DNA of 64,000 bases from Acidobacteriota bacterium (GTDB taxonomy: Bacteria; Acidobacteriota; Terriglobia; Acidiferrales; UBA7541), in contig QHZD01000034.1 in NCBI GenBank assembly GCA_003225315.1, positions 1 through 64,000 on the forward strand. The letters run 5' to 3'. Position 1 is the first letter of the stretch. The number at the start of each line of letters is the position of its first letter. The notes beneath the pieces were generated by a model. The model worked only from the letters and a program-made list of their open reading frames with translations, was not told the DNA's origin and made no database searches. Made by a program: the position numbers and the translations under genes. This document shows, piece by piece, positions 6,619-16,357 of the stretch.

Positions 6619-6642
6619 TCGAAAGGCAAGGAGAGAGTGTCC

Positions 6643-8532
6643 ATGGAAAACCCAGTCCCGGGGCGGTCCGACAAAATGAATACTGCCGAACGCAAGCCTG
6701 AACTGATCCATGAGCTTGTGTCCGAGCAAGCATCGCGCAACCCCCAAGCCTTGGCAATTTCGGCGGGTTGCAAGTCACTCACATACTTGGAGCTGGAGGC
6801 GCGCGCCAACCGCATGGCGCATCATCTGCGATCTTTGGGAGTCGGCTCGGAAGTTGTCGTTGGCCTTTGCGTGGAGCGTTCCATAAGCCAAATCGTGTGC
6901 GCTCTGGCGATCCTGAAAGCAGGGGGAGCATATCTTCCCTTGGATCCCTCTTACCCCACGGAACGCTTAAAATTCACTTTAGAGGATTCTCAAGCGCCAT
7001 TTCTAGTCACAGAAGATCATCTTGCTGAGAGACTCTCCGGAAGTAATTGCCGGATAGTTTCTGTTGATGGTGCTGATCGAGTACAAATTGAGTATCAACG
7101 ATCCGAAAGGCCCGTCAACTCCAGTCGTCCAGAGAGTCTGGCATACGTCATATATACGTCAGGATCCACGGGTGTTCCCAAAGGTGTTGCGATTAGTCAC
7201 CAAAACTTACGGAATCTGATCCAATGGCATCAGGACACCTTCCAAGTAGCTTCCAAGGACCGAGCAACATATCTAGCAGGCTTGGGCTTTGATGCCTCAG
7301 TTTGGGAGCTATGGCCGTACATCACGGCTGGCGCCAGCCTTCATCTTCCGGAGGATTCGGTTCGCACGGATCCAGAGTCTCTCCAACGCTGGTTGCTGCG
7401 ACAAGAAATTACGATCAGTTTTGCTCCTACGCCACTCGCGGAGCGCTTGATCACGCTATCGTGGCCTGCGCGCACATCGCTGCGGATTCTGCTGACCGGG
7501 GGGGACGTGCTTCATAGATTCCCTTCGAGGGAACTGCCCTTCACGCTCGTGAACAATTACGGCCCGACAGAGTGCACCGTCGTAGCGACCTCCGGGCCAG
7601 TTGGAGCCAGAACGGAGCCTGTTAGCCGGCCCACAATCGGCCTGCCCATTGCTAATACGCAAATTTATATTTTGGACGAGAATTTTGAGCGCGTCGCGGA
7701 TGGTGCTTCAGGAGAGCTATTCATTGGCGGCAAGGGAGTTGGGCGGGGCTATCTGAACCATCCTGAACTCACCGCCGAGAAATTCCTTCCAAATCCTTTC
7801 GATTCCAACCCCGACGCACGAATGTACCGGACCGGAGACCTTGCCCGCTTACTGCCGGACGGCCAGGTCGAATTCCTGGGCAGAGGCGACGATCAAATTA
7901 AGATCCGTGGTCATCGGATCGAACCAAACGAAATTACGTCCGTCCTGGCTGAAAATCCGGCTATACAACAGAGTGTCGTTGTCGCTCGAGAGCTACAAGA
8001 TGGAGAGAAGAGCCTGGTCGGTTACTTTGTGCCGGCTCCTGGAGTGCGAGTACGAGCGTCGGATCTCAAATCTGCGCTGCTAAAACGCTTGCCCGACTAC
8101 ATGGTGCCAACCGCTTTTGTGCAATTAGAGTCCCTACCTCTTACACCGAGTGGAAAGGTCGATCGGACAGCACTGCCACGGGTGACGTCAACAAACACCC
8201 TAACCGACAATACATACGTTGCGCCGCGCACGCCCGTCGAGGAAAGAGTCGCGGGAATCCTTGCGCAGCTTCTAGGACTTGAAAGTGTCGGCGCTGAGGA
8301 CAATTTCTTCATGCTCGGCGGCCATTCACTTTTGGGAACGCAGGTGATTATTCGACTCAGGGATATCTTCGGGATCGAACTGAGCCTGCGAACTATCTTT
8401 GAGGCTCCCACGGTCGCTGAACTTGCCGCTCGTGTCGAGGCTTCCCTGATTGCGAGACTGGAAGCGATGAGTGAAGAGGAAGCCCAGCGAATTCTCGAGC
8501 CTCCATCGGGTGGATTGCTTCAGGCAATTTAA
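6643..8532 (+). CDS. NRPS A-PCP didomain protein, predicted leucine-activating
   Basis: Activates an amino acid as an adenylate and loads it on its own carrier domain. All adenylation core motifs are present: A3 YTSGSTGVPKG (near residue 170), A4 FDASVWEL (about 216), A5 NNYGPTE (about 304), A7 YRTGDLARLLPDG, A8 GRGDDQIKIRGHRIE and A10 TPSGKVDRTALP. The carrier motif is LGGHSLLG with phosphopantetheine Ser562. Reading the ten specificity positions by alignment to GrsA gives D-A-W-F-L-G-N-V-V-K, the published leucine code. No C or TE domain is attached, so it is a stand-alone loading unit. ATG 6643 is preferred over an upstream GTG at 6637 because AAGGAG then has nine-base spacing. First gene of the operon; 20 bp before the P450. 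Confidence 0.93.
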   Translation: MENPVPGRSDKMNTAERKPELIHELVSEQASRNPQALAISAGCKSLTYLELEARANRMAHHLRSLGVGSEVVVGLCVERSISQIVCALAILKAGGAYLPLDPSYPTERLKFTLEDSQAPFLVTEDHLAERLSGSNCRIVSVDGADRVQIEYQRSERPVNSSRPESLAYVIYTSGSTGVPKGVAISHQNLRNLIQWHQDTFQVASKDRATYLAGLGFDASVWELWPYITAGASLHLPEDSVRTDPESLQRWLLRQEITISFAPTPLAERLITLSWPARTSLRILLTGGDVLHRFPSRELPFTLVNNYGPTECTVVATSGPVGARTEPVSRPTIGLPIANTQIYILDENFERVADGASGELFIGGKGVGRGYLNHPELTAEKFLPNPFDSNPDARMYRTGDLARLLPDGQVEFLGRGDDQIKIRGHRIEPNEITSVLAENPAIQQSVVVARELQDGEKSLVGYFVPAPGVRVRASDLKSALLKRLPDYMVPTAFVQLESLPLTPSGKVDRTALPRVTSTNTLTDNTYVAPRTPVEERVAGILAQLLGLESVGAEDNFFMLGGHSLLGTQVIIRLRDIFGIELSLRTIFEAPTVAELAARVEASLIARLEAMSEEEAQRILEPPSGGLLQAI

Positions 8533-8552
8533 GATTGACAGGCGAGCAGCGC

Positions 8553-9827
8553 ATGTCATCGGGACCAAAAATGGTGGACTCAGCTCCGAGCCTAGTGCGT
8601 TTGCTCGAACCGGAAGTCCTTGCCAATCCGTACCCGCTCTTCGAGGAGCTGCGGACGAAAGCTCCTGTTTACTGGGATCCTTTTCTTCATGCCTGGGTGG
8701 TAACGCGCTACCAGGACGTAGTCAGAGTCTTGCATGACTTTTCCGCGGATAGAACGCCGACTCCCGAATATCTTGAGAAAATTGGCCTGGGCGATATAGC
8801 TCCGATCGCACAGGTGATGGTAAAGCAGATGCTCTTCCTGGATCCGCCTACCCACACGCGGATCCGAAGTTTGGCTTCTTACGCGTTTACCCCCCAACGT
8901 GTGGAGATCCTGCGGGGTCACATCCGCGATGTAGTGAAGAGGCTCATCGACGACGTCGCGCCCCGTGGGAAAATGGATGTAATCGCTGATCTTGCTGAGC
9001 CGCTCCCGTACGTCATCACGGCGGAAATGCTGGGAGTTCCGGTCGAGGATGCTCCTCAATTAAAGATATGGTCGCAGGATTTCGCCGAGATGCTCGGGAA
9101 CTTTCAGCACAACCCCGATCACTTTCCGCGGGTGCGCCGTTCTGTCGAGGAAATGACGAAGTATTTCGAATCGGCGATCCGAGAAATCAAGAAGCATCCG
9201 CGAGAAGGACTCATTCAGTCCTTCCTGACAGCGGAAATCGACGGAGATCGTTTTACCGAAGAAGAGACCATCGCAAACACTATCGTCACGATGGTTGGTG
9301 GCCAGGAGACGACCACGAATCTGATTGGAAACGGCGTACTTACGCTGTTGCGACATCCACAGGAACTCGAGCGATTGAAGGCCGATCTCGCCTTGATACC
9401 TTCCGCTGTAGAGGAAATGCTCCGTTATGAGCCGCCGAGCCAGCACACCGCGCGTCTCGCACCGTACGATTTGGAACTTGGAGGGAAGGAGATTCGCAAA
9501 CGGCAAGCCACAATCGCCGTGATGGCAGCGGGAAACCGCGACCCAGAACGCTTCCCGGAGCCCAATCGCTTCGACATCACGCGCAAGGACAACCGGCACC
9601 TCTCTTTCGGCTGGGCAGCGCATTTTTGCTTCGGTGCAGCGCTAGCGCGCATCGAAGGGCAGGTCAGCTTTGAAGAAATGGTGCGCAGACTCCCTGACTG
9701 GTCGCTCGACGAAGGTCCTCTCGTTTGGCGGACAAACCTCGGGCTTCGCGGTTTGCGGTCTTTGCACATTCAGTTCGGCACGACTGAGCGGTACAAGAGT
9801 TACATTTCAGGTTCAAAGAGCGCATAG
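8553..9827 (+). CDS. Cytochrome P450, probable tailoring of PCP-bound leucine
   Basis: Soluble bacterial class I-like P450 of 424 residues with no membrane anchor. Visible signatures are PPTHTRIRSLASYAFTP, the I-helix GGQETTT, the K-helix EEMLRYEPP (ExxR) and the heme loop FGWAAHFCFGAALAR with heme-ligand Cys359. The heme loop has Ala where the usual FGxG has Gly. Its position directly after a free-standing A-PCP protein matches NovH/NovI- and NikP1/NikQ-type pairs, in which the P450 beta-hydroxylates the carrier-bound amino acid. I infer 3-hydroxyleucine formation, but position and substrate are unproven. No ferredoxin or reductase gene is nearby. ATG 8553 was chosen over a TTG at 8535; the ribosome site is weak. 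Confidence 0.92.
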   Translation: MSSGPKMVDSAPSLVRLLEPEVLANPYPLFEELRTKAPVYWDPFLHAWVVTRYQDVVRVLHDFSADRTPTPEYLEKIGLGDIAPIAQVMVKQMLFLDPPTHTRIRSLASYAFTPQRVEILRGHIRDVVKRLIDDVAPRGKMDVIADLAEPLPYVITAEMLGVPVEDAPQLKIWSQDFAEMLGNFQHNPDHFPRVRRSVEEMTKYFESAIREIKKHPREGLIQSFLTAEIDGDRFTEEETIANTIVTMVGGQETTTNLIGNGVLTLLRHPQELERLKADLALIPSAVEEMLRYEPPSQHTARLAPYDLELGGKEIRKRQATIAVMAAGNRDPERFPEPNRFDITRKDNRHLSFGWAAHFCFGAALARIEGQVSFEEMVRRLPDWSLDEGPLVWRTNLGLRGLRSLHIQFGTTERYKSYISGSKSA

Positions 9828-9853
9828 ACGAAACACTCAAGGGGTACCGAGCC

Positions 9854-11302
9854 GTGGAACCAATTGCGTCGATAGGGCACCTTTCTGAGGCAAAGCGGCG
9901 CCTTCTTGATGCTCTTCTGAGTCACGAGAAGCCTGTTAGACGAGGAAGTTCACGAGCGATAACTCGTCGCAATACTTCCGCGTCCGTCCCGTTGTCGCTT
10001 GCCCAAGAAGAAATTTGGCATCGGGCCCAGGATGCCATCGACAAGCCTCCTTTTTACAACGAATCAATAACGATCCATCGGCAAGGGGCGCTCGACGTAG
10101 CTGCTTTGCAGCAAAGTCTCACCGAGATTGTGCGGCGACACGAAGCTTGGAGAACGACCTTTTACACTTTGGATGGTCAGCCGTTTCAGATAGTGCATCC
10201 AGCGCCGGAGCGCTTTCCAATTAGCACCTATGACCTTAGCACGCTACCCGAATCAAGAAGGGAAGAGGAAGCCCTCCGACTGGCGTCGGAACAGGCGAGA
10301 GAACAATTCAACCTCGAAACGGGCCCGCTGCTCCGTGTCAGGCTGATCCACCTAGGCGACACGCGTCATCAAGTGCATGTAACCATGCATCAAATCATTG
10401 TTGATGGGGTCTCAGTGTTCCGAATATTTCCCCTTGAACTAATCAAGTTATATGAGGCTTTTGCGGAAGGTCGCCCTTCGCCTCTCCCGGAACCAGGTAT
10501 TCAATATGGAGACTTTGCGAGGTGGCAGAAGGAGTTTCTCGGAGAGGAGATTCTTGAGCGGCAACTGAACTATTGGCAAGAACAACTGTCGGGAGAGCTT
10601 CCATCTTTGGAGTGGCCGTGCGACCGTCCACGCCTTTCCATAGTAACTTACCGGGGATCAATCGCTTCGGGCGAGTGGCCGAGCGTTGTAGCGGAACAGC
10701 TGCACGAAATTTGCCGAGAAGAATCAGTCTCCCTGTTCATGGTTCTTCTTGCCGGTTTTGTTCTCTGGTGGCACCAGTACACGAAGGAGAGCGACATTAT
10801 TGTGGGGACCTTGGCTCCCGCGGGACGTGAACAGCAAGAAGTTCAAGGACTACTCGGTTGTTTTCTAAACCCAGTTCCCCTTCGGTTCAGAATCACTCAA
10901 AGCATGACCTTTCACGATCTGCTTCGCCAAACCCGCGAGGTTGTTTCGGGAGCGGTAGCGAATGACGACGTGCCATTTTTTCGTATCTTGGAGCGGGTCG
11001 GGGGGAAGCCCGGTCTCAGCGAGAATCCCTTATTCGATGCTGTAATTTCGTTGGCACCCAGACTGCCTGATTTGGGATCTGGCTGGGATCAAACATTTAT
11101 GGATGTCGAAAGCGGCGGGTCTACATGGAACCTGTATCTTGAACTCAACGAGCGGTCCCAGGGCATAGTATTCCGCACACAATACAATCCTGACCTGTTT
11201 AACGCCGAAACAGTGTGCCGTATGACTGACGATTTGAAGTTGCTGCTTGAGGCGGCGGCTGCGGAACCGCGGAAGACTATTTCCGAACTTTGCAGGGAAT
11301 GA
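9854..11302 (+). CDS. Free-standing condensation-like domain with degenerate active site
   Basis: A 482-residue single C-domain protein. Conserved pieces include C1 SLAQEEIW, C2 RHEAWRTTF, C4 YGDFARWQ, C5 LLGCFLNPVPLRF and NDDVPFFRILERVGG. The catalytic motif HHxxxDG reads H179-Q180-I-I-V-D-G, so the second (catalytic) His is Gln while the Asp-Gly is kept. It may not catalyse ordinary peptide bond formation. Alternatives are a P450- or carrier-recruiting role like the glycopeptide X domain, or substrate-assisted condensation. It begins with GTG after AAGGGGT, 26 bp past the P450, and its stop overlaps the next start by four bases (ATGA). It is clearly paralogous to the C domain of the next gene. 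Confidence 0.88.
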   Translation: MEPIASIGHLSEAKRRLLDALLSHEKPVRRGSSRAITRRNTSASVPLSLAQEEIWHRAQDAIDKPPFYNESITIHRQGALDVAALQQSLTEIVRRHEAWRTTFYTLDGQPFQIVHPAPERFPISTYDLSTLPESRREEEALRLASEQAREQFNLETGPLLRVRLIHLGDTRHQVHVTMHQIIVDGVSVFRIFPLELIKLYEAFAEGRPSPLPEPGIQYGDFARWQKEFLGEEILERQLNYWQEQLSGELPSLEWPCDRPRLSIVTYRGSIASGEWPSVVAEQLHEICREESVSLFMVLLAGFVLWWHQYTKESDIIVGTLAPAGREQQEVQGLLGCFLNPVPLRFRITQSMTFHDLLRQTREVVSGAVANDDVPFFRILERVGGKPGLSENPLFDAVISLAPRLPDLGSGWDQTFMDVESGGSTWNLYLELNERSQGIVFRTQYNPDLFNAETVCRMTDDLKLLLEAAAAEPRKTISELCRE

Positions 11303-14300
11303 CCTTGGAAAAACAGCAGCCAAATCCCGAAAACATTGGCTTGTCTCAGTCCAAGCACGTGCTGCTTGAAAAATATCTCAATAAGCAGGCAGCACGTAAG
11401 CCCGAGGCAAAGTCGGCAATTCCCGCGCCACCGTCCGGTGAACCTATTCCACTGTCTTTTGCTCAACAACAAGTGTGGCTGCACTCGCAGATGGCCGGCG
11501 ACACTCCCATTTACAATGAGGCGGTCACCATCTACCGGCTAGGCCCACTTGATTTGAAAGTGTTTGAACGTTGCATGGTGGAAGTCCTTCGCCGTCACGA
11601 AATCTGGCGAACCACTTTTGACACGGTCGGCGGTTTTCCCATCCAGATTGTTCAATCAGCCCCCCATAGATTCCCGCTGGAGATGACCGACGTCCGACAC
11701 TTGGAGGAATCTGAGAGAGATAGGGAAGCAAGGCGACTGGCGACGCAGAGTGCGCAAAGGCCCTTTAACTTGAAGAAGGGGCCACTTCTGCGTGCCATCG
11801 TTGTTCGGCTAGGTGAGGAAGAGTATCGCGTCTACATGACGTTTCACCTGTTGGTGTTTGACGCGGTCAGCGCGTACCGTGTTTTTCTGCCGGAATTATC
11901 GGCGTTGTACGAGTCTTTCTCCGCCGGCAAACCGTCGCCCCTCCTGGAGCCGACCCTGCAATACGGAGACTTCGCATATTGGGAGCAGAAAACATTCGCG
12001 GACGAAAGTCTGTCAAGTCAACTTTTGTTCTGGCGCGATAAGCTATCCGGCGAGCTGCCCGTTCTCTCATGGCCTAACCACCGTCCAAGGCCACCCTATG
12101 AGACCCATCGTGGAAACGTTGAGCGATTTAGATTCGATCCAGCAATCGTCCCGGCCTTAAAAGCCTTCTGCCAGCAGGAGGGCGTATCGTCATACATGGT
12201 CTTGCTGACGTCTTATGTAGCGTTGCTAAACCGTTATACCGCCCAAGAGGATATCGTGATTGGCGCGCTTTCAGCGGGCAGGAGGTGGCCTGAGGTCGAA
12301 CGGCTGCTCGGGGATTTCGTCAATCCGCTCCCTCTCCGAGTGGATCTCTCCAGGAATCCGACTTTTCGGGAGCTCACGAAGCGGGTTATGCATGTCGTGC
12401 TGGATGCTCTCACGAACGAACAAGTTCCCTTCGAAATGATTGTTAAAAGTTTGCGACTGCGGCCCGATCCAAGCCGCAGCTCGATTTTCCAGATTATCTT
12501 GTCTAAACAACCGCAATTGATACCTGTCTGTCCGGGGTGGAATCTCGCGACAGAGGAAGTTTCGAATGGTGCTTCAAAGCTAGACCTGATGATCGTCATT
12601 GATGAGCGTCCCGATTCTTTATCGGGGCCTATCACCTACAACACCGACTTGTTCGACGTTTCGACGATAACCAGAATGGTCGAGCACTGGCAGAAGCTTC
12701 TCGAGGCAGGACTAGCACACCCCGATTGCTGCATTTCAGAGCTCCCACTGCTTACAGACACCGAGCGCAAGCAACTTCTAGTGGATTGGAACAATACGCT
12801 CGCGGACTATCCGAAGGACAAGTATCTGCATGATTTAGTGCAGGCTCAAGCCGAGAGGACGCCAGACGCTGCGGCGGCAGAGTTCGAGGAGGCGCGTCTT
12901 TCGTATCGCGAACTCAATGCACGTGCCAATCAGCTCGCCCATTATCTAGGGAAGCTAGGAGTTGGGCCAAATGTTTTGGTCGGCGTCTGCATGGAGCGCT
13001 CGCTGGAAATGTTGGTAGCCCTGCTGGGGATCATGAAGGCAGGAGGAGCTTATGTGCCCTTGGATCCTTCTTTCCCCCAAGACCGCCTCGCCTACATGGT
13101 GGAAGACAGCCAAATGTTTCTGCTCGTCACTCATCGCGAAGTTGACAAGAATCTGTCGGTCCGGCCGGAATTGGTCGTTCGCCTGGACTCTGATTGGCCG
13201 GAGATCTCAAAACGAAGAACTGATAGTCCGACATTGCTGAGTGCAAGCTCACAGAACCTCGCCTATGTGCTCTACACCTCTGGTTCGACCGGCAAGCCCA
13301 AGGGTGTCGAGATTCCGCACAGCGCACTCATGAATTTTGTACTTTCGATGCAGCACGAGCCGGGCTTCACGGCCGGGGATGTGATGTTGGCTGTCTCCTC
13401 CGTGTCCTTCGACATTGCAGGGCTCGAGTTCTATGTTCCGCTCGCCAGCGGCGGAAAAGTGGTGATCGCCAGCCGCGAAGAGGCCCGCGATCCCGTCCGG
13501 CTGATAACACGAATGCGCGACTCCCGGTGCAACGTGATGCAGGCTACACCTGCTACCTGGCAGGCTTTGATTGATGGCGGCTGGCAGGGTTCGCCAGATC
13601 TGAGAGTTCTCTGCGGCGGGGAGTCCCTTTCCCGCTCTTTGGCACAAGCGCTCCTTGCACGCTGCGCGGAATTGTGGAACATGTACGGCCCGACGGAAAC
13701 CACGATCTGGTCAGCGATTCACCGGGTCACTTCCGCCAACGGGCCAATTCCGTGCGGCCGGCCGATTGCCAACACTCAGCTCTTTGTTCTCGACCGCCAT
13801 CGCAATCTAGTTCCTGCGGGCGTTATCGGCGAGCTATACATCGGTGGTTCGGGTTTGGCGCGCGGGTACTTGCATCGCCCCGAGCTGACACTGGAACGCT
13901 TTGTCAAAAGCCCTTTTGGACCAAACGCGCGCTTGTATCGCACGGGCGATCTCTCGCGGTGGCTCTCCGACGGCACTCTGGAATGCCTTGGCCGCAACGA
14001 TAATCAAGTAAAGATCCGCGGATTCCGAATCGAGCTGGGGGAGATCGAAGCTGTGCTCGGCCGCCACGAAACGGTGAGTCAGTGTGTCGTCGTCGCGCGC
14101 GAACAAACGCCTAATGAGAAAGTCCTGGTGGCATACATCGAACCGAGGCCGGGATTGGTGCCGGACATCAATGATCTGCGGACTCATCTGAGAAGGGAAC
14201 TACCCGACTACATGCTCCCGTCAGCCATCGTCTTGATGGACAAGTTGCCGCTGACGCCCAACGGTAAGATTGATCGCAAGGCGCTGCCACCTCCGGCAGA

Positions 14301-15396
14301 GCAGTACGTCGAGATTCCAGGAGAGTTTGTCCCGCCTCAAGATCCGCTTGAACATGCGCTTGCCAGAATATGGGCAAAGATCTTAAGAGTGAAACGAGTG
14401 GGGCTGAAAGACAATTTTTTTGACCTGGGCGGACATTCTCTTGCCGCAGTCCGCATGTTATCCGACGTCGAAAAGCTGAGTGGCAGAACGCTGCCACTTG
14501 CGACCCTCTTTCAGGCTACAACGGTGGAAGCACTTGCCGAACTGATACGCAGAGAGGGCTGGACCCCGTCGTGGTCATCGCTTGTGCCCATGCAACCACG
14601 CGGATCAGCAACTCCATTATTTTTGATCCACGGTGCCGAGGGCAACGTTTTGCTGTACCGGAATCTGGCTGCCTATCTCGGACCGGATCAACCGGTTTAT
14701 GGCTTGCAATCACAAGGTTTGAATGGCAGCGGCCGCCTCAACACAACGATTGAAGACATGGCGTCCGAGTACCTAAAGGAAGTAATGACTGTTCAACCGC
14801 ACGGTCCGTACTTCCTGGGGGGCTACTGCCTTGGAGGAGTTATTGCCTTTGAGATGGCACAGCAACTGAGTGCGCTTGGCGAGAAGGTTGAACTCGTAGC
14901 CATGCTTGATACGTACAATCAATGTGCGGTTCCAAACTCGATATCATTTCCGAAGCTGGTCGTGCACTTCTTGCAGAATTTGTGGTTTCACGGCGCCAAC
15001 ATGTCTTCGCTTCGATGGAAAGACCGTAGAAAGTTTCTCAGGGAGAAAGTCGATGTTGGACTGTCCAGACTCCGGATCAGGCTGCATGCCGGACGTTATG
15101 CGTTGCTGCGTGCTTGCGGCCGGAAGGCACAGAACAGCTATCCGCATTTGGCCATAAAGAAGGTGAACGATCAAGCTGCGCTTCGCTACGTGCCTCAACC
15201 TTATGACGGTCGTGTGGCTGTCATCCGTCCAAAAGGACACTTCTTGGGCTTGACCGACGCAAGCTTAGGATGGCGCGAAGTCGTGCCCCATGGTCTGGAG
15301 GTTCATCAGCTCCCCGTTTATCCCAAGGGCATCCTAGTCGAGCCATTTTGTCGTTTGCTAGCCAAGACCATGAAATCGTGCTTGCAGGACGCATGA
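11299..15396 (+). CDS. NRPS module C-A-PCP-TE, terminal module
   Basis: A 1365-residue complete termination module. C domain (about 50-480): SFAQQQVW, RHEIWRTTF, but the active site reads H183-L-L-V-F-D-A instead of HHxxxDG. A domain (about 500-1010): YTSGSTGKPKG, SFDIAGLE, MYGPTETTIW, YRTGDLSRWLSDG and KIRGFRIE. The code read against GrsA is D-I-L-Q-C-G-M-I-W-K, closest to the glycine code I remember (DILQLGLIWK). PCP: LGGHSLAA with Ser1047. TE (about 1100-1365): GYCLGG puts Cys1177 where Ser is usual, and the position of the catalytic His seems to be Pro (VYPKGILVEP, about 1342). Start is ATG 11299 within the ATGA overlap; a TTG nine bases upstream is less likely. Confidence 0.93.
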   Translation: MTLEKQQPNPENIGLSQSKHVLLEKYLNKQAARKPEAKSAIPAPPSGEPIPLSFAQQQVWLHSQMAGDTPIYNEAVTIYRLGPLDLKVFERCMVEVLRRHEIWRTTFDTVGGFPIQIVQSAPHRFPLEMTDVRHLEESERDREARRLATQSAQRPFNLKKGPLLRAIVVRLGEEEYRVYMTFHLLVFDAVSAYRVFLPELSALYESFSAGKPSPLLEPTLQYGDFAYWEQKTFADESLSSQLLFWRDKLSGELPVLSWPNHRPRPPYETHRGNVERFRFDPAIVPALKAFCQQEGVSSYMVLLTSYVALLNRYTAQEDIVIGALSAGRRWPEVERLLGDFVNPLPLRVDLSRNPTFRELTKRVMHVVLDALTNEQVPFEMIVKSLRLRPDPSRSSIFQIILSKQPQLIPVCPGWNLATEEVSNGASKLDLMIVIDERPDSLSGPITYNTDLFDVSTITRMVEHWQKLLEAGLAHPDCCISELPLLTDTERKQLLVDWNNTLADYPKDKYLHDLVQAQAERTPDAAAAEFEEARLSYRELNARANQLAHYLGKLGVGPNVLVGVCMERSLEMLVALLGIMKAGGAYVPLDPSFPQDRLAYMVEDSQMFLLVTHREVDKNLSVRPELVVRLDSDWPEISKRRTDSPTLLSASSQNLAYVLYTSGSTGKPKGVEIPHSALMNFVLSMQHEPGFTAGDVMLAVSSVSFDIAGLEFYVPLASGGKVVIASREEARDPVRLITRMRDSRCNVMQATPATWQALIDGGWQGSPDLRVLCGGESLSRSLAQALLARCAELWNMYGPTETTIWSAIHRVTSANGPIPCGRPIANTQLFVLDRHRNLVPAGVIGELYIGGSGLARGYLHRPELTLERFVKSPFGPNARLYRTGDLSRWLSDGTLECLGRNDNQVKIRGFRIELGEIEAVLGRHETVSQCVVVAREQTPNEKVLVAYIEPRPGLVPDINDLRTHLRRELPDYMLPSAIVLMDKLPLTPNGKIDRKALPPPAEQYVEIPGEFVPPQDPLEHALARIWAKILRVKRVGLKDNFFDLGGHSLAAVRMLSDVEKLSGRTLPLATLFQATTVEALAELIRREGWTPSWSSLVPMQPRGSATPLFLIHGAEGNVLLYRNLAAYLGPDQPVYGLQSQGLNGSGRLNTTIEDMASEYLKEVMTVQPHGPYFLGGYCLGGVIAFEMAQQLSALGEKVELVAMLDTYNQCAVPNSISFPKLVVHFLQNLWFHGANMSSLRWKDRRKFLREKVDVGLSRLRIRLHAGRYALLRACGRKAQNSYPHLAIKKVNDQAALRYVPQPYDGRVAVIRPKGHFLGLTDASLGWREVVPHGLEVHQLPVYPKGILVEPFCRLLAKTMKSCLQDA

Positions 15397-15442
15397 AAGG
15401 CTCAAGCAAGTCCGGCCAGAGGTTCTTCGGCGGTGCTGTATT

Positions 15443-16204
15443 TTGCCGATAAAAGCAGACGAGATTCACGTGTGGAGTGGCCGCATCGCTGCGGGAGAGG
15501 ATTGCTTCCTCGCACTCTTCAAATCCTTGTCGCAAGATGAAACTGAGAGAGCCGCGCGACTCCATTTTGACAAGGACAGACGATCTTTCATCATTTGCCG
15601 CGGCTTGCTGCGCTCAATTTTGGCGGGCTACCTGGGACTTAAGCCAGCCGAGATACGGTTTGAGTATGGTCCACAAGGCAAGCCTTCGTTGCAGAATCGT
15701 GCCATGTGCTTCAGCGTTAGCCACTCGGAGGATCGGGTGCTTTACGCCTTCTGCAAGAATTGCGAACTCGGCGTCGACCTAGAATATGTACGCGACCTAC
15801 CCGATGCTGAGATCCTCGCCCAGCGGTTTTTTGCTCCTTCCGAGTACATCGAGTTTCGCGGCACAACGTCGGCCTTTCGCACAAGGGCTTTTTTTTGCTG
15901 CTGGACCCGCAAGGAGGCTTACATTAAAGCCACAGGGCGCGGCTTGTCACTGCCTCTGGACTCGTTTCAGGTGCCTATATTGCCTGAACAACCCGCGCAG
16001 CTCAGAATTACGACAAGGCCGAGCGAACACCTCTCCGGTTGGAGTCTGAGACACCTGGACCCTTCACCCGGATATGTGGGAGCCTTGGCCGCCCCATTGG
16101 TGTCCTTTCCCTTGGCCCACCGGACTTTCGAAATGGCTGAAGAGTGCATGGAACGTATTCGTCGGCCCGAATCCTCCGTTCTTGCGGGACTCACTAGGAG
16201 CTGA
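15443..16204 (+). CDS. Sfp-type 4'-phosphopantetheinyl transferase
   Basis: Converts apo carrier proteins to the holo form by moving phosphopantetheine from CoA to the PCP serine; the two PCP domains of this operon are the obvious targets. About 253 residues, the usual length of the Sfp/Gsp group. The three signatures are present: GPQGKPSL, FSVSHSEDRV...GVDLEYVR (Mg-binding D-x-E) and CCWTRKEAYIKATGRGL (WxxKEAxxK). The only start codon in frame after the upstream stop that fits the family N-terminus (IHVWSGRI) is TTG at 15443, with a weak ribosome site. It is the last gene of the NRPS operon. Confidence 0.92.
   Translation: MPIKADEIHVWSGRIAAGEDCFLALFKSLSQDETERAARLHFDKDRRSFIICRGLLRSILAGYLGLKPAEIRFEYGPQGKPSLQNRAMCFSVSHSEDRVLYAFCKNCELGVDLEYVRDLPDAEILAQRFFAPSEYIEFRGTTSAFRTRAFFCCWTRKEAYIKATGRGLSLPLDSFQVPILPEQPAQLRITTRPSEHLSGWSLRHLDPSPGYVGALAAPLVSFPLAHRTFEMAEECMERIRRPESSVLAGLTRS

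Positions 16205-16280: not shown

Positions 16281-16357
<77 letters not shown>

Follow-up and report, generated by a model that had tools for sequence, protein, structure and literature searches.

Pairs of a stand-alone A-PCP didomain and a P450 are known, as is the hydroxylation of leucine held on a PCP. NikP1/NikQ and NovH/NovI are described as a stand-alone A-PCP with a partner P450 gene, and by that description they resemble the locus reported here; their substrates are histidine or tyrosine and their P450s belong to other families. P450BioI (CYP107H1) likewise works on a substrate held by a carrier protein, as we propose for the P450 of this locus, but that substrate is a fatty acyl chain, there is no NRPS partner, and its identity to our P450 lies below the usual 40% family threshold. 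P450sky and Tem23 act on PCPs within elongation modules and have no A-PCP partner. Published PCP-dependent leucine beta-hydroxylases include PlyR (proposed), Sky32 and Tem23 (PMC3943440, PMC9321520); P450sky (Sky32, CYP163) and Tem23 beta-hydroxylate PCP-bound leucine (PMC9321520), the same type of reaction as proposed here, but differ in lineage from our P450 as far as match lists tell. The polyoxypeptin pathway (PlyC, PlyD or PlyQ, PlyR and a TE) has, like the window (the whole stretch of 64,000 nucleotides of acidobacterial DNA that was analysed), a discrete A domain and PCP with a P450 for which beta-hydroxylation of PCP-bound leucine is proposed, as well as a discrete TE, and inactivation of plyR abolishes the polyoxypeptin product (PMC3943440). 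It differs in that its A domain and PCP are separate proteins rather than a didomain and in that its product is proposed to be released as a free amino acid and then re-activated; PlyR is NikQ-like (37%), the code of PlyC is reported as unreadable, and the system is actinobacterial (PMC3943440).

In the window, Pfam and NCBIfam annotation recovers five genes (6637-16204), all on the + strand, that form one operon:

6637-8532, + strand: stand-alone A-PCP didomain (Pfam AMP-binding, AMP-binding_C and PP-binding), with the leucine code DAWFLGNVVK by alignment
~6721-8157 and ~8242-8436, + strand: the A domain and the PCP, respectively, both within the A-PCP frame 6637-8532
8535-9827, + strand: soluble cytochrome P450, partner of the A-PCP (Pfam, family motifs, structure model)
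9854-11302, + strand: stand-alone C domain with the degenerate motif HQIIVDG, its second His lost (Pfam, motif)
11290-15396, + strand: C-A-PCP-TE module (Pfam), with C motif HLLVFDA, A code DILQLGMIWK (glycine) and TE motif GYCLG
15443-16204, + strand: Sfp/HetI-type phosphopantetheinyl transferase (PPTase; Pfam, NCBIfam)

A tRNA-Met gene (16281-16357, minus strand) adjoins the end of the cluster, with the 3' end of the tRNA facing it. A mobile island was considered on account of this junction and rejected, as a search upstream gave no repeat of the tRNA end; the sole remaining sign in that direction is a third-position GC lower in the cluster than in the downstream housekeeping genes.

The first-pass annotation had read the ten specificity residues of the first A domain as D-A-W-F-L-G-N-V-V-K, and alignment with LgrA and motif anchoring both returned this same code, which we take to be that of leucine in the published Stachelhaus table with PheA position numbers; the second-module code DILQLGMIWK is presumably that of glycine in published code tables. 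The A domain of 6637-8532 is thus predicted, with strong support, to activate leucine. Pfam detects no C domain in this frame, so that an A-PCP lacking a C domain stands beside a P450 gene, the defining arrangement of stand-alone A-PCP and P450 systems. The soluble P450 that the same annotation had placed next is indeed an intact frame of soluble type (8535-9827) directly after the A-PCP in the same operon, its start more likely being the ATG at 8553 than the TTG at 8535. It has the motifs of a catalytically complete P450 (ExxR, the acid-alcohol pair and the heme Cys), and the ExxR motif, the E-T pair of the I-helix and the heme Cys are invariant across 83 aligned sequences of its family, which also has signatures of its own (LGNFQxNP and GGQETTTN).

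Genome contigs were searched with the P450 alone as query, and the neighboring A domain was therefore not selected for. This search recovered 444 relatives, of which the best 80 loci were kept, comprising a near twin of the window with a 99% identical P450 (L024) and 79 relatives at 61-72% identity. Within these 80 best loci a PCP lies directly upstream in 72 of 82 P450 copies. Of the other ten, several are cut off by the end of the contig; L084 has the A-PCP adjoining the P450 on the opposite strand, and L038 has a C domain between the two. Where the paired A domain has a complete code, this is exactly DAWFLGNVVK in 61 of 66 cases and differs at one position in the other five. Each of the nine variable positions of the code is conserved to at least 95%, against a median A-domain identity of 53% (hypergeometric P ~1e-6, indicative only as the sequences are related). 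Given the upstream PCPs and the identical codes, the pairing of A-PCP and P450 is far beyond chance. The other A domains in these loci (n=97) have 35 different codes, so the link between leucine and P450 is the constant part of the assembly and its downstream partners the varying one. A separate search of 396 Acidobacteriota genomes showed a sharp boundary: P450s of at least 50% identity all occur with a leucine-code A-PCP, whereas none of the seven at or below 40% has an A-PCP. P450 distances are correlated with those of the A domain (r = 0.70, permutation maximum 0.14) and of the PCP (r = 0.67, permutation maximum 0.18), and the cassette P450s form one clade with support 100/100. Three loci (L084, L085 and L092) have two tandem P450 copies, which suggests a second oxidation step there.

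The usual follower of the pair is a C-A-PCP(-TE) module whose code is variable (Gly, Val-like, the basic-looking DIEDIGTVIK, DSALIAEVWK and others, the substrate names being tentative readings). The C domains that come after the P450 belong for the most part to a single clade of 69 rows, which includes the two from the window. The P450 and the downstream module are a single open frame in 18 loci. In seven loci (L039, L041, L044, L047, L071, L073 and L077) the P450 runs directly into an A domain and no C domain is recognized between them, and in two others (L028 and L031) a C domain is recognized at that point by its C-terminal part only. At two ktedonobacterial loci (L087 and L075) only a thioesterase follows the A-PCP and P450. 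In three loci from three phyla (L079:11218-12342, L096:2256-3542 and L103:11251-12351) the pair is directly followed by a protein of ~370-430 aa that has no Pfam match, and there is no C domain at that place. Its structure model (pLDDT 86) matches the N-myristoyltransferase and Eis-type double-GNAT folds (best Z ~21, rmsd ~4.3 Å over 316 residues, ~10% identity), and it is possible that this predicted double-GNAT protein is the transferase of the oxidized leucyl unit. Apparently, the hand-off of the pair varies between a C domain, a TE and a predicted double-GNAT acyltransferase while the pair itself is constant, as expected for building-block supply.

In L029, L042, L046, L051 and some 15 other loci from Acidobacteriota, the cassette lies inside an exopolysaccharide locus with an XrtA-type ATPase and kinase, a polyprenyl glycosylphosphotransferase and glycosyltransferases. 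Next to the cassette these same loci have a PigA/RedW-like prolyl-PCP dehydrogenase, together with an A domain whose code is DLFYLALVCK, which suggests a pyrrole-2-carboxyl unit. Searches of the open-access literature on P450-NRPS fusions and on NRPS genes in exopolysaccharide loci brought up nothing relevant.

Neither C domain of the window has the canonical HHxxxDG motif, both having lost its second His (HQIIVDG in 9854-11302 and HLLVFDA in 11290-15396), and the way in which the amide would be formed is therefore uncertain. The stand-alone C domain belongs to a group of eight members, all of which lack the second His. The lost His had suggested an interface or X domain for the P450, a role we rejected: such a stand-alone domain is absent from most cassette loci and thus cannot be a general requirement of the P450. 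The TE of the window (14600-15396 within 11290-15396) has a Cys nucleophile (GYCLG), and among relatives' TEs in which the motif was read the nucleophile is Cys in 18 and Ser in 22.

The first-pass annotation had implied kinship of the P450 with CYP163, and this part of it found no support. The best sequence match is P450BioI (270 bits, the lowest of the 60 best matches listed being 179 bits), which is also the best structural match of the P450 model (pLDDT 87), in its acyl-ACP-bound form (Z 48.7, rmsd 2.0 Å over 381 residues, 37% identity). P450sky does not appear by name in the top 60 matches by sequence or the top 50 by structure, nor was it reached with a Streptomyces plasmid P450 as stepping stone. 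Membership in CYP163 is hence unlikely, a judgement made from the match lists rather than from a direct CYP163 comparison or tree. At 37-38% identity the protein also falls short of P450BioI/CYP107H membership (at least ~40%), and the cassette P450 is apparently a separate lineage. Homologs from Nostoc (37-43% identity) are preceded by an AMP-ligase-carrier protein, most readily interpreted as FAAL-ACP; those on Nostoc plasmids had been candidates for the same A-PCP and P450 pair and were rejected on account of these FAAL-ACP-like upstream proteins. Together with the acyl-ACP-bound match, these neighbors make carrier-bound substrates seem usual around this branch of P450s, in which support for the deep branches is weak.

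We think it likely, on balance, that 6637-16204 encodes a dipeptide line headed by a portable supply unit. The A domain would activate leucine and load its own PCP, presumably primed by the co-encoded PPTase, and the P450 would bind leucyl-S-PCP and oxidize the side chain on the carrier, most likely at C3, to give 3-hydroxyleucyl-S-PCP. A C domain would then join this unit to glycine on the second module, and the TE with its cysteine nucleophile would release the product. Leucine loading and on-carrier oxidation by the paired P450, as had been proposed at the outset, are well supported by the comparison, through the invariant code, conserved adjacency, correlated divergence, downstream P450 fusions and the nearness of an acyl-ACP-dependent P450; and the presence of the pair in front of many different modules points to building-block supply as its role. 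Against this pathway we count that the P450 does not appear to resemble the CYP163 enzymes that set the precedent, and that the second His is lost from both C domains of the window. 3-Hydroxyleucine is most probably the product, an assignment drawn from PlyR, Sky32 and Tem23, as nothing in the sequence fixes the site, and other positions or dehydrogenation fit the sequence equally.

A less likely outcome, one we still take seriously, is that the P450 acts on leucyl-PCP by hydroxylation at C4 (a tertiary C-H) or C5, by dehydrogenation or by multi-step oxidation. P450BioI oxidizes acyl-ACP at in-chain carbons by multi-step chemistry, and with this enzyme as nearest solved relative and with signatures peculiar to the family, regiochemistry is not transferable from CYP163; yet the published oxidations of PCP-bound leucine that we found are all at the beta carbon. 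P450s that tailor at a late stage are a common feature of NRPS clusters. It is nevertheless improbable that the P450 lies beside the A-PCP by chance and tailors a finished, released peptide, as PlyM is proposed to do (PMC3943440), because the differing downstream modules must yield widely varying peptides while the P450 stays constant and tied to the leucine A-PCP, and because the pair is in some loci followed by neither a C domain nor a second module. Action on a fatty acyl-ACP independently of the leucine module, for which the P450BioI match and the Nostoc neighborhoods speak, is very improbable, since the window and its relatives carry a leucine A-PCP at that place with no FAAL-ACP seen, and the P450s of the cassettes group in a clade apart.

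Loci with the pair come from seven phyla (Acidobacteriota, Rokubacteria, Chloroflexota, Eremiobacterota, Verrucomicrobiota, Planctomycetota and Pseudomonadota), and as many of the loci are from metagenome bins, misbinning is possible for these; records without a bin label are among those from Thermogemmatispora, Dictyobacter, Ktedonobacteria brp13, Bryobacterales F-183 and Roseomonas KE2513. The P450 of the window groups with a sequence from Eremiobacterota (support 99 in one tree and 100/99 in another), and the tree passes from one phylum to another more than once, which suggests, without proving, transfer. There is, in our judgement, an evenly balanced case that a separate line of P450s, closer to those dependent on acyl-ACP than to CYP163, independently acquired the ability to oxidize PCP-bound leucine and developed into a portable A(Leu)-PCP-P450 cassette, which spread through at least seven phyla and hands the oxidized leucyl unit to NRPS C domains, a lone TE or a double-GNAT acyltransferase inside polysaccharide loci.

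Judged against the open-access literature, what appears to be new is a P450 clade with a strict leucine partner, its spread across phyla, its fused forms and the fact that it is also used where C domains are absent. It offers a family-wide rule, that where this P450 clade is present the product should carry an oxidized leucine, and hence a marker at the sequence level from which many peptides of uncultured soil bacteria could be predicted in part. Cultured or named carriers are at hand in Thermogemmatispora, Dictyobacter and Roseomonas, and the A-PCP and P450 would constitute a compact unit for making hydroxylated leucine.
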